Assembly (NCBI GenBank): GCA_913052575.1
Contig: CAJXFK010000013.1
Location: forward strand, 1-36,498
Reading direction: 5' to 3'
Source of the DNA: an uncultured Planctomycetaceae bacterium
Lineage (GTDB): Bacteria > Planctomycetota > Planctomycetia > Pirellulales > UBA1268
Length of the DNA: 36,498 nt
Below, one piece after another: positions 12,614-16,890 of the stretch. Position 1 is the first letter of the stretch. The number at the start of each line of letters is the position of its first letter. The notes below the pieces were generated by a model that did no database searches, was not told where the DNA came from, and saw nothing but the letters and a program-made list of their open reading frames with translations. The position numbers were made by a program, and so were the translations under genes.

Positions 12614-14023
12614 ATGGGAGTCGATAAGCAAACGAAACAACGTCTCACCCGGCTTCAAGCGCTCCAATGGCTTGACAGACGATCAAACTTTGAGCAAACA
12701 CCGACTAAACTTGGAAAAAAAACAACATTCACCCTATCTCGGATGGGTGCTCTACTCAAAGCACTTGATAACCCACAGCGTCAGTTTCCTTCCGCACATC
12801 TTGCTGGCACAAAGGGCAAGGGTTCGACCGCCGCAATGCTAGCAGCGATCGTACAGTCTGCTGGGTATCGAGTTGGGTGCTATCTTTCTCCTCACGTTGA
12901 CAAAATCGAAGAGCGAATTTCTATAGCAGGCAGGCAGATCTCTACAGCCGACTTACTCACCGCTTTCCATAAAATAATTCCTATTGTTGAACGGCTCGAT
13001 CAACTTGCATTACGTAAAAATACAACTGGTCCAACTTGGTTTGAAATCCTAACAGCTATTGCATTTATTCACTTTGAGCGAAAAGGTGTTGACCTTGCTG
13101 TCATTGAGACTGGTCTTGGTGGAAGACTCGACGCAACAAACCTCTGCAATCCTATTGTCTCATTGATTACAAACATCAGTCTCGACCACACCGATGTCTT
13201 GGGAAACACTATCCGTGCCATTGCATTTGAAAAAGCGGGGATCATACGACGTGGTAGCCCTGTTGTATCGACGGCTTTGCACCCCGACGCCATGAAAGTC
13301 ATAGCCGAAAGAGCTGCACTCAAACGGACTAAAATATTTATTCTGAACCGAGATTTCACAGTACGCCCATCAAAGGTAGGGGCAAACAAAAGAGGAAATT
13401 CTACTCAAACCAATTTGCATTCATTTGAGATTCAGGCGCCACCAGGATCCCTCCCAGAAATCTACAGCATCGCAATGGCAGGTGTTCACCAGGCAGAAAA
13501 TGCTGCCTCGGCAATCATTGCTACGAAAGTACTAGTAGGACAAGGATTTCAAATAGCCAAGCAAGACATCGCTGTCGGCCTTCGGAAAACCTGCCTCCCA
13601 GCTCGGATTGAATGGATTTCATATTCTCCGCCAGTCATTCTTGACGCAGCACATAACGTTGCTTCAATGCATTCTTTAGTACAAACACTGGAATCTCAAA
13701 ACAACCAGCCTAAAAAACGGATTCTTATTTTTGCAGCAAGCGCTGACAAAGAACTTAAAGCGATGCTGCAAATAAGTAAAACGTATTTCACGGACGTTGT
13801 GCTCACACGCTATGCCACAAATCCACGAGCTGCCACGATCACGAGGTTGCGCGATGCGGCAAAAAAAGGAGGATGGCAGGAACCTCATGTTGCAGTTTCG
13901 CCTACAGAGGCAGTGCTGATCGGAAAGCGGCTATCTGGGAAAACCGGCCTACTGTGTGTAGCCGGCAGTTTTTTTCTCGCCGCTGAAGTACGTAACGCCT
14001 TAACGCGAAATATTAATTCATAG
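12614..14023 (+). CDS. folC: bifunctional folylpolyglutamate/dihydrofolate synthase
   Basis: FolC adds glutamates to folates and usually also makes dihydrofolate from dihydropteroate. The 469-residue protein is a Mur-ligase-type ATPase. The P-loop is GTKGKGS (65-71), followed by LSPHVDKIEERI, the metal/omega-loop region ETGLGGRLDATN, DHTDVLGNT, and FEKAGIIRRG. The C-terminal domain begins about residue 330 with ARIEW and VILDAAHN. The protein is slightly longer than E. coli FolC because of a polar insertion near residue 255. The gene is convergent with the S41 protease homologue, with 33 bases between the stops. The start ATG 12614 has only a weak GAGA upstream. Confidence 0.93.
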   Translation: MGVDKQTKQRLTRLQALQWLDRRSNFEQTPTKLGKKTTFTLSRMGALLKALDNPQRQFPSAHLAGTKGKGSTAAMLAAIVQSAGYRVGCYLSPHVDKIEERISIAGRQISTADLLTAFHKIIPIVERLDQLALRKNTTGPTWFEILTAIAFIHFERKGVDLAVIETGLGGRLDATNLCNPIVSLITNISLDHTDVLGNTIRAIAFEKAGIIRRGSPVVSTALHPDAMKVIAERAALKRTKIFILNRDFTVRPSKVGANKRGNSTQTNLHSFEIQAPPGSLPEIYSIAMAGVHQAENAASAIIATKVLVGQGFQIAKQDIAVGLRKTCLPARIEWISYSPPVILDAAHNVASMHSLVQTLESQNNQPKKRILIFAASADKELKAMLQISKTYFTDVVLTRYATNPRAATITRLRDAAKKGGWQEPHVAVSPTEAVLIGKRLSGKTGLLCVAGSFFLAAEVRNALTRNINS

Positions 14024-14056: not shown

Positions 14057-15394
14057 TTACAAGCGTTCTTCTGAACGAAAAAGCGTGAGTGCTCGCCCGA
14101 GTACAGGATCAGCATATTGAGGCAATAGTGCTCCGGGGTCGACTGGCTCATTGGGCTGACGGACACGCACAAGATCACGCTGTCTTCTCCAAGAAATCCA
14201 ATTTTCAAGCTGCTGCCGAGTAGGCGAAAAGGCAAAGTTAGAATTGGGTCGAACGCCCCATGAATCCGAATCGTGACTCGTACTCAACCTATTGAGGTGA
14301 GCACCACTAGGTCTCTGATATTCATTTGTCGTCAGCCGTATTGCCCCGGAGCCACTCGAAAGTACTGTGACTGCCTGCACCGAAGCATTCCCAAAAGAAC
14401 GGCTACCCACAATTGTTGCTCGGCCGTAGTCTTGCAGACACGCGGCGACTATTTCAGACACGTTTGCAGTAAATTCATCTATAAGGACAGCAATCGGTAC
14501 ACCTTGTAATATTTGTCCAGGTGATGCCTTCCATTCTTGCTGAATTTGCTTTTTTTGACCGAAACGATCACCGGTTCTCGCGTTTGCGATTGCAACAATT
14601 ACTTGATCCTCGAGAAAAAGATCACACACCGAGATTCCAGACTCTAATATGCCACCCGTGTTACCCCTTAAATCAATAATTAGACCTTTCAACTCATTTT
14701 TGCTTGCAAGATCTTCAAGTATGTCAGAGCACTGACTGCCTGTCTGATTACTGAAATAACTTATTCTCAAATAGGCGATATCTGATTCACCTTCTAGCCA
14801 CCAATCCCACGCACCACTTGGCAAACGGCGATCCCCTCGAATACTTTCAATGATAATATTTTTCCGGAGAATGGTGACATTTTGATAAACCGGTAGGCCA
14901 TTATCACTCATGTTCGTTTTTTGAATGCGAAGATTAACGGCACTGCCAACTTCACCACGAAACTGAGTCACTATTTCAGATAGATCCAGACCGGTTGCAG
15001 CAACACCATTAACGCTGTCTATGAGATCTCCAGAACGAATACCTGCCCGCCAGGCAGGCCCTCCAAACACTGGAGCAACAACAGCAATATCTCCTGTTAT
15101 AGAATCCGCATCTAGTTCAACACCGATACCAGCAAATTCTTTTGTCAATTCTTTATCATATTTTTTCAGATTGACCGCCTCAATGAACTCAGACCGATCA
15201 TCAAGCGTACGAAAGACACCATCCATCGCCGCATGGAATAGTTGTTCTGAGTCAACTGACTGAAAATGCCTGTCATTAATTTGCTGAATGACTTCAGCAA
15301 ACCGTTTCCCTTGACCAGTTCGATCCTGGGCAGCGAAGGCAAGAAGGCACCCGGGCACAACAATGGCGATAATAAGAAGATTTTTTTGGTGCAT
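14057..15394 (-). CDS. S41 (C-terminal processing) peptidase homologue, active-site residues replaced
   Basis: A 445-residue exported protein with the order of a CtpA/Prc family protease. An N-terminal signal or anchor (5-22) is followed by a helical segment, a PDZ domain (about 87-160, with FAGIGVELD, AGIRSGDLIDSVNG) and a tail-specific protease core (about 205-390; LKGLIIDLRGNTGGIL, RATIVGSRSFGNASVQ, YQRPSG). In the family the catalytic Ser lies in T-A-S-A-S-E-I and the Lys 25 residues on in F-G-K. Here these positions are Asn311 (TANVSEI) and Asn336 (FGNASVQ), with the conserved Gln340 kept. By sequence it is a pseudoprotease, perhaps a peptide-binding scaffold. ATG 15394 is preceded by AGGAAC. 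The GC sequence at Cys16 is a weak lipobox. Folding is likely intact, since no stop or frameshift is present. Confidence 0.85.
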   Translation of the reverse strand: MHQKNLLIIAIVVPGCLLAFAAQDRTGQGKRFAEVIQQINDRHFQSVDSEQLFHAAMDGVFRTLDDRSEFIEAVNLKKYDKELTKEFAGIGVELDADSITGDIAVVAPVFGGPAWRAGIRSGDLIDSVNGVAATGLDLSEIVTQFRGEVGSAVNLRIQKTNMSDNGLPVYQNVTILRKNIIIESIRGDRRLPSGAWDWWLEGESDIAYLRISYFSNQTGSQCSDILEDLASKNELKGLIIDLRGNTGGILESGISVCDLFLEDQVIVAIANARTGDRFGQKKQIQQEWKASPGQILQGVPIAVLIDEFTANVSEIVAACLQDYGRATIVGSRSFGNASVQAVTVLSSGSGAIRLTTNEYQRPSGAHLNRLSTSHDSDSWGVRPNSNFAFSPTRQQLENWISWRRQRDLVRVRQPNEPVDPGALLPQYADPVLGRALTLFRSEERL

Positions 15395-15735: not shown

Positions 15736-16890
15736 ATGGCACGTCGACCAAAATCAAAGCATCGTAGAGAACCGCAGAAAGATCCACTTGAAGCCTTACG
15801 GCCGCTTATTGTCCTCGGGCTTTTGGGAATGATTCTGTACGGCGCCTATTCAATAATTCAAAAAGGACCAAAAGAAACGAATCAAGAATGGCAGCGCTCG
15901 GGATCAACATCCACAACTGCATCTGAAGCGCCACCTTTTGTGCCATCAGTGCCAGCACCACCTTCAGTAGATTTACAAAGTCCAGCCGAAACACTGACAA
16001 GTCTTCCTTCTGATCGAGACAATGCTCCTGCAGTATCTTCTGGCTCACAATCATTGGCACAAGAGCAACCTCGCACTCTGCCTATCGACCAAATGCCACC
16101 AACCTATATTGAGGCCGTTGCTGCAATCCCTCCTCAGTCACAAGCACCACCTGCTGGACCTGGTAGCACCACAAGAGATATTCTCGGACCAAAAGACTCC
16201 GCAGCTTTCACAGCTGCATGGACTGATGCCCATAATAAACTTGAGGCTGGCCGATACGCTGAGGCCCTCGCGGCTCTTTCCGTATGGCATGACAATTCGT
16301 CCCTGAGCGTTGAAGAAAACCTTCAGCTCGAAAGGCTGCTTGGCCAACTCGCTGGGACCGTAATATATTCGACACAAGACATGTTACTACCACCACATAC
16401 AGTAGCTGCTGGAGAAACATTAGAAACAATTGCGGAGCCATTAAATATTCCTTGGCAACTCCTTTCCAAAATAAATGGTCTGGAGCCTGGCAAGCTAACA
16501 ACTGGCCAACGAATCAAAGTTTTAAGAGGTCCGTTTGATGCCGTCGTCAGCGTCTCAAAGCGACGCCTGAGCCTCCAAGTAGGTGGTCGCTATGCAGGAA
16601 CTTTTCCTGCCGCCATCGGAAAAGGATTTGTTGACCGAACCGGTTCATCGGTACAGCTGCTTCAGATCCGCTCTAATGCTGAGCCTCAACCCCAGGCAGT
16701 TTCTGTAAGTTATCGATCCGCAGGCGGAACTGCGATTATTCTTGGCGACGGATTACGGATTCAACCCGCCATTGACCCAACTTTTATCATGAAAGATCCG
16801 GAGGACAATGTACTTCTGGTGTCCTCTGCCGATTTCAATGATCTAGTGGGAATACTCGGCCAAGGCTCTCAATTACTTGTTCAAAAGTAG
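15736..16890 (+). CDS. membrane-anchored LysM protein with degenerate L,D-transpeptidase-like domain
   Basis: A 384-residue protein probably anchored in the inner membrane and facing the periplasm. It has a basic N-terminus, one membrane helix (22-41), a Pro/Ser/Gln-rich linker (45-150), a helical segment (155-210) and a LysM peptidoglycan-binding module (219-264, HTVAAGETLETIAEPLNIPW). The C-terminal domain (266-383) starts like a YkuD L,D-transpeptidase: VVSVSKRRLSLQVGG then AGTFPAAIGKG. It ends with ADFNDLVGILGQGSQLLVQ, as YkuD domains do after the catalytic loop. The H-x-G ... S-H-G-C-x-R catalytic motif is missing, and the protein contains no cysteine at all, so cross-linking activity is very unlikely. 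The start at 15736 is supported by AGGAA 9 bases upstream; an out-of-frame ATG at 15729 ends quickly. Confidence 0.82.
   Translation: MARRPKSKHRREPQKDPLEALRPLIVLGLLGMILYGAYSIIQKGPKETNQEWQRSGSTSTTASEAPPFVPSVPAPPSVDLQSPAETLTSLPSDRDNAPAVSSGSQSLAQEQPRTLPIDQMPPTYIEAVAAIPPQSQAPPAGPGSTTRDILGPKDSAAFTAAWTDAHNKLEAGRYAEALAALSVWHDNSSLSVEENLQLERLLGQLAGTVIYSTQDMLLPPHTVAAGETLETIAEPLNIPWQLLSKINGLEPGKLTTGQRIKVLRGPFDAVVSVSKRRLSLQVGGRYAGTFPAAIGKGFVDRTGSSVQLLQIRSNAEPQPQAVSVSYRSAGGTAIILGDGLRIQPAIDPTFIMKDPEDNVLLVSSADFNDLVGILGQGSQLLVQK

Follow-up and report, generated by a model that had tools for sequence, protein, structure and literature searches.

A CtpA-type S41 protein of a planctomycete with asparagine at both catalytic positions, probably a pseudoprotease kept under purifying selection

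In an uncultured Planctomycetaceae bacterium, a gene of the S41 protease family encodes asparagine where both catalytic residues are expected, raising the question of whether the protein still cuts, is decaying or is kept for another role. The gene lies at 14057..15394 on the minus strand of the window (the whole stretch of DNA that was analysed, 36,498 nucleotides) and was identified by its open reading frame, Pfam and structure alignment as encoding a probable S41/CtpA-type pseudoprotease of 445 amino acids; all positions within this gene are given for the minus strand. The Peptidase_S41 domain (PF03572, residues 205-369, 14288..14782) scored 128.6 bits in Pfam with a cut-off of 24, indicating homology to the S41 family. 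A PDZ region covers residues about 85-165 (14900..15142), according to the fold and a PDZ_6 match at residues 110-159 (40.4 bits, cut-off 27). The predicted model (mean pLDDT 85.5, pTM 0.81, from a 46-row alignment) has the CtpA-like fold with PDZ domain, and its closest solved structures were Pseudomonas aeruginosa CtpA (PaCtpA), Helicobacter pylori CtpA (HpCtpA), Bacillus subtilis CtpB, the photosystem II D1 protease and Prc. The match to PaCtpA extended over 358 residues with a Z of 34.8 and an rmsd of 2.9. The model also contains an N-terminal hydrophobic helix (residues 3-23), and we infer that the protein is anchored in or exported to the cell envelope; the periplasmic site named in the original prediction is suggested by this helix and by the known location of relatives. 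Cys16 (15347-15349) follows the hydrophobic stretch and is invariant in eight aligned proteins of the genus; judging by its position, it could be a lipoprotein site, although the Pro two residues upstream is unusual.

The catalytic site was read in an alignment of 110 distinct sequences, comprising 107 orthologue-type sequences (100 with Ser/Lys) and three paralogues. The register of the alignment is fixed by two PaCtpA structures, the wild type (7rpq) and the S302A mutant (7rqh), whose sequences differ solely at the column matching Asn311. Residues 311, 322, 336 and 340 were Asn, Asp, Asn and Gln, respectively. Codon 311 (AAC, 14462..14464) stands in the column of the nucleophilic Ser, where 105 of the 110 rows have AGC or AGT, and codon 336 (AAT, 14387..14389) stands in that of the general-base Lys, where 103 of the 110 have AAA or AAG; both figures take in sequences collected by a pattern scan, which asked for Ser or Asn in the catalytic position or for a WDWWLEG-type motif and so favours intact sites. 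Asn336 aligns with the PaCtpA Lys, 25 residues past the nucleophile column, and Gln340 (14375..14377), four residues after the Lys column, is kept in all 107 orthologue-type rows. The same +25/+4 spacing is reported for CtpB (residues 309/334/338; PMC3808539), PaCtpA (302/327/331; PMC11021448) and HpCtpA (300/325/329; PMC12749690). The Gln of active S41A peptidases is thus present, and both the nucleophilic Ser and the general-base Lys are absent, so that the protein belongs to S41 by homology and fold and yet is not classed as a peptidase.

The original prediction, which had placed Asn311 at the Ser position and Asn336 exactly 25 residues on, with Gln340 and the fold retained, agrees with the alignment to PaCtpA and its S302A mutant. 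The interval that it gave, 14380-14480, covers both Asn codons, and Gln340 falls just outside. The alignment contained neither a Ser/Lys pair elsewhere nor a nucleophile at Ser313, so the Asn/Asn placement stands: among the 100 Ser/Lys relatives, the position of Ser313 is held by Ala in 48, Ser in 44 and Gly in eight, which excludes it as a relocated nucleophile. A shifted alignment was excluded by the 7rpq/7rqh pair, which marks the column, and a sequencing or assembly error by the agreement of three separate assemblies (G000, G002 and G003). Asn as a self-cleaving nucleophile was also considered and found no support.

To see how far the Asn pair extends, the S41 orthologue was sought in 59 genomes of a relatives set, 10 of the genus and 72 of the family, these sets overlapping. 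Drawn from whole-genome searches and not from the biased pattern scan, the family census gave a match at 1e-40 in 59 of the 72 genomes, and the catalytic region was read in all 59: 52 had Ser/Lys, three Asn/Asn (G000, G002 and G003), three Ser/Asn, with Lys lost and Ser kept (G001, G005 and G006), and one His/Arg. This last one, in another genus of the family (G013:C184:8172-9545), carries His in the Ser column and Arg in the Lys column and appears as a second, independent loss of the dyad, resting on one assembly. Within the genus, the site was readable in nine of the 10 genomes, since in G008 a contig end leaves no more than a C-terminal fragment; the Asn pair is shared by three of these nine and is not genus-wide, the others being Ser/Asn or Ser/Lys. 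At the order level, all 39 further matches, fetched by rank down to about 1e-39, keep Ser and Lys, and the Asp column has one Glu and one Ala. The 13 family genomes with no match at 1e-40 include some incomplete assemblies. All four genomes of one genus, g6 (G014, G023, G031 and G063), are among those without a match at this threshold, which suggests that the whole gene was lost there.

The distribution of these residues bears on the order of loss. In a tree of the 110 rows, made by a quick method without bootstrap, the six Lys-less proteins formed one clade with a support of 100, within which the three Asn/Asn proteins (support 99) and the three Ser/Asn proteins (support 97) were separated. 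The lost-dyad label needs two changes on this tree, with G013 falling elsewhere. In the simplest history, Lys would have changed to Asn first, in the ancestor of the six genomes, and Ser to Asn later, in three of them. Each change is a single nucleotide step (AGC to AAC; AAA or AAG to AAT or AAC), and since single mutations readily yield both Asn residues, their match needs no special cause. The two matched losses of the original prediction were not borne out, as one loss followed the other, and in three sister genomes the Ser is still present beside an Asn in the Lys column. Lateral transfer of the gene is opposed by the conserved gene order described below.

After the loss, the gene remained under constraint. 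Pairwise NG86 dN/dS among the six Lys-less genes was 0.08-0.20, and the pooled value was 0.167, compared to 0.185 for Ser/Lys pairs, both pooled from pairs that share branches and hence are not independent. The Lys-less values come from pairs within the clade; against the Ser/Lys sisters, most dS values are saturated, and the stem branch lies outside the measurement. Around the Ser position (residues 300-325), dN/dS was 0.047 in the Lys-less clade and 0.048 in the Ser/Lys orthologues, and around the Lys position (residues 326-345), 0.075 and 0.078, respectively. Control genes of the same clade gave 0.11-0.15 (folC), 0.13-0.15 (LysM) and 0.09-0.24 (BBP7). The branches of the Lys-less clade are long for S41 and also for the accD, folC, BBP7 and LysM genes of the same genomes, which excludes an acceleration specific to S41; leuS was left out of these controls, as outgroups were lacking.

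The losses also stand out against a well-kept protein. Among 97 background Ser/Lys relatives, 60 positions show a conservation of 95% or more; the S41 protein departs from them at six (V185I, A253G, G264Q, R272A, S311N and K336N), and the chance of both dyad positions falling among six changes is about 0.0085 (6x5 over 60x59). The loss is shared between species, Lys in six genomes and Ser also in three, with purifying selection afterwards, as is expected of a pseudoprotease. This gene is not a pseudogene. The claim of loss without other decay was supported in this respect. With both catalytic residues gone, the remainder kept and purifying selection continuing, the protein is best read as serving, under selection, a role that involves no cleavage.

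The genomic setting of the gene is stable. The order accD, BBP7, folC, S41, LysM is conserved in the genus, and most family loci examined keep it with one gene inserted between S41 and LysM. This inserted gene (L093:4695-5978 and equivalents) is on the S41 strand and is not found at this place in the genus; as read in that one family locus, it encodes a nucleotidyltransferase with a GlmU-like hexapeptide end. The convergent neighbour is a folC-like Mur ligase gene (12614..14023, plus strand; Pfam), which served as a synteny marker. The divergent neighbour (15736..16890, plus strand) adjoins S41 in the genus and is still nearby across the family; Pfam, profile and model give it an N-terminal helix, LysM and an L,D-transpeptidase-like fold without Cys. 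Its C-terminal region is related to the L,D-transpeptidase YkuD (profile E 2.6e-6), and the folds most similar to its model, a poor one with a pLDDT of 56.6, were those of L,D-transpeptidases (Z of up to 9.2). The catalytic motif of L,D-transpeptidases comprises Cys and SHG or HGT. Among the 25 distinct relatives of this neighbour whose match reaches the protein end, none had SHG, three had a Cys within the last 175 residues and one had HGT. As far as these motifs tell, the neighbour appears to be a relative of transpeptidases that is catalytically dead throughout the family. A catalytic co-loss of S41 and its LysM neighbour was not supported, the neighbour being mostly without Cys even beside an intact S41. 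Plasmid and Rfam searches gave nothing bearing on the question of the dead dyad.

A search of the genome for an active CtpA, as the original prediction proposed, found two further S41 genes, one CtpA-like with 571 codons and one Prc-like with 741, both with Ser, Asp, Lys and Gln and hence intact at the sequence level; their genus counterparts, where found, also keep all four residues. A duplication with one copy freed from constraint was not supported, only one of the three S41 genes being of this orthologue group; the assembly is 84.7% complete, so the count of three may miss a copy. G001 has one more S41 gene, its fourth, whose dyad is intact (L159/L184, G001:C326); it is possibly contamination, which is listed at 5% for this genome.

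Residues beyond the dyad indicate what was kept and what was changed. By alignment, Phe87 (15134..15136) and Arg146 (14957..14959) are the equivalents of Phe-105 and Arg-162 of HpCtpA, the latter being the PDZ sensor Arg; both are reported to sense substrate (PMC12749690). The Lys-less clade retains these two as well as Pro113-Ala114 of the PDZ loop, Arg243, Gly247 and Gly248, the partial protein at L009 covering the later of these positions. Arg67 (15194..15196) occupies, by alignment, the position of PaCtpA His-84, described as a possible third catalytic residue (PMC11021448), and of HpCtpA His-85. It is derived in the Lys-less clade: of 97 background sequences, 53 have His and 39 have Tyr in this column, and the Ser/Lys sisters have Asn, Ala and Asn. 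Arg272 and Gly264, near-invariant in relatives, are both altered, and the pocket may have been remodelled for something other than peptide.

Four other explanations were weighed. If the protein were still a protease, with Ser313, Arg67 or a lysine elsewhere as the new nucleophile or base, one might point to the sub-clade that has Ser without Lys, to Ser313 lying two residues from the dead site and to the newly fixed Arg67. We consider this highly improbable: Ser313 is ordinary among the Ser/Lys relatives and absent in the Ser/Asn sub-clade, the sole newly fixed Lys or His residues common to all six Lys-less proteins, His2 and Lys159, are outside the catalytic domain, and the change of Lys to Ala is reported to kill both PaCtpA (PMC11021448) and Prc (PMC5686067). 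Least probable of all is a decaying gene, in which the need for the protease has gone and the reading frame has yet to break. The absence of the orthologue from the matches in some family genomes, the small genome (2.9 Mb) and the long stem branch of the Lys-less clade would fit such decay, which is, however, strongly opposed by the low dN/dS over a dS of up to about 2.8 within the clade, by five full-length open frames with a sixth cut by a contig end, and by branches of the neighbouring genes that are long as well.

The two remaining explanations keep a function and place it elsewhere. A non-peptide ligand might be bound in the old active-site region, as retinoids are by vertebrate IRBP/RBP3, whose S41 fold is shared (7jti, Z 17.2, 248 residues aligned; fold similarity alone), and the core of the Lys-less proteins has derived fixed residues at 253, 268, 271, 357 and 360; the PDZ domain, the sensor Arg146, Phe87 and the Gly-Gly loop are nevertheless kept and point to peptide handling, making this quite improbable. 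Decidedly improbable, too, is a role as decoy or hetero-oligomer partner regulating the two intact S41 proteases of 571 and 741 amino acids. Both are intact in this genome and in the genus members where they were found, and in the PaCtpA complex the linker of an inactive subunit is reported to touch the active site of its neighbour (PMC11021448); against this, the S41 protein is just 24-30% identical to these paralogues, so that mixed oligomers are not obvious, and no genetic link between them was seen.

The explanation that we favour, as probable, is an S41A pseudoprotease of the CtpA type that is retained in the envelope to bind or gate substrates without cleaving them. Its starting point would be a Ser/Lys protease that this family ancestrally had as a single copy. 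Proteolysis would have ended when the base Lys was lost (AAR to AAY) in the common ancestor of the six genomes; Ser, freed of its partner, would then have become Asn (AGY to AAC) in the sub-lineage including this genome, while purifying selection persisted at the level of the Ser/Lys orthologues, strongest around the dead site. The residue losses, their order, the constraint, the orthology and the intact paralogues are all read from the genes themselves. Proteolysis has very probably been lost in the Lys-less proteins, in line with the report that S302A and K327A abolish PaCtpA activity in vivo and that the effect of Q331A is minor (PMC11021448), and that a function is retained is nearly as likely.

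Beyond this, we infer that the protein binds, what it binds and where it does so. Prc-K477A is described as inactive with a co-purified peptide sitting in the site (PMC5686067), and CtpB S309A as binding PDZ peptides at 2-10 uM and adopting the active conformation even though the Ser hydroxyl is missing (PMC3808539). As these dead mutants hold peptide, and the PDZ domain, sensors and tunnel are kept here, capture of protein tails without cutting would be expected: the protein would most likely still recognise protein C-termini via PDZ, admit the peptide to the tunnel and hold it instead of cutting it, as a receptor, holdase or regulator of envelope proteins. This peptide-holding role, close to the peptide-binding one of the original prediction, is the least sure part of the explanation, with about even chances. 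The orthologue is dispensable in places, as the 13 family genomes without a match indicate, which speaks against the explanation, as do the changes at Arg272 and Gly264 and the Arg67 found where most relatives have His or Tyr, and the constraint could reflect a role in fold or oligomer without substrate binding. Further still, a single-copy protease turned into a dedicated peptide-holding receptor, maybe forming a non-enzymatic envelope-sensing or scaffold pair with the catalytically dead LysM neighbour, is an idea that we hold rather unlikely.

Pseudoenzymes usually come to notice when the loss is already old, and often the gene is a duplicate. In this case, the sole orthologue found in the genome appears to have given up its catalytic residues one after the other, with each stage represented by living species and the gene order unchanged. 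With this series, one can test whether proteases of the carboxy-terminal processing kind have a function apart from cutting, and which of the catalytic residues is the first to be lost as such an enzyme becomes inactive. Pseudoproteases in general, and S41-fold proteins that bind rather than cut, such as IRBP, are already known; what is unusual is that living species still show the intermediate stages of a gene with one copy found in each genome, and that G013 adds an independent loss. Our literature search, mostly of open-access papers, found no description of a natural dyad-less S41 protein in planctomycetes.

Among known systems, the modules of IRBP/RBP3 are described as an S41-related fold serving as a binding protein (PMC2000878). 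IRBP is a vertebrate retinoid carrier, whereas the S41 protein is bacterial and has a PDZ domain. To our knowledge, IRBP has no catalytic dyad. CtpB S309A and Escherichia coli Prc K477A are dead at the same positions and are reported with peptide bound or co-purified (PMC3808539, PMC5686067); these mutants are laboratory-made, whereas the loss described here is natural, apparently stepwise and common to several species. PaCtpA (S41A; 7rpq, 8sxg) shares the PDZ and S41 fold, the Gln, the Asp and the Gly-Gly loop, but has Ser-302/Lys-327 and His-84 where the S41 protein has Asn/Asn and Arg. The Ser/Lys orthologues of the genus and family (G004, G007, G009 and others) have the same gene order and domain layout as the S41 protein, with the dyad intact.
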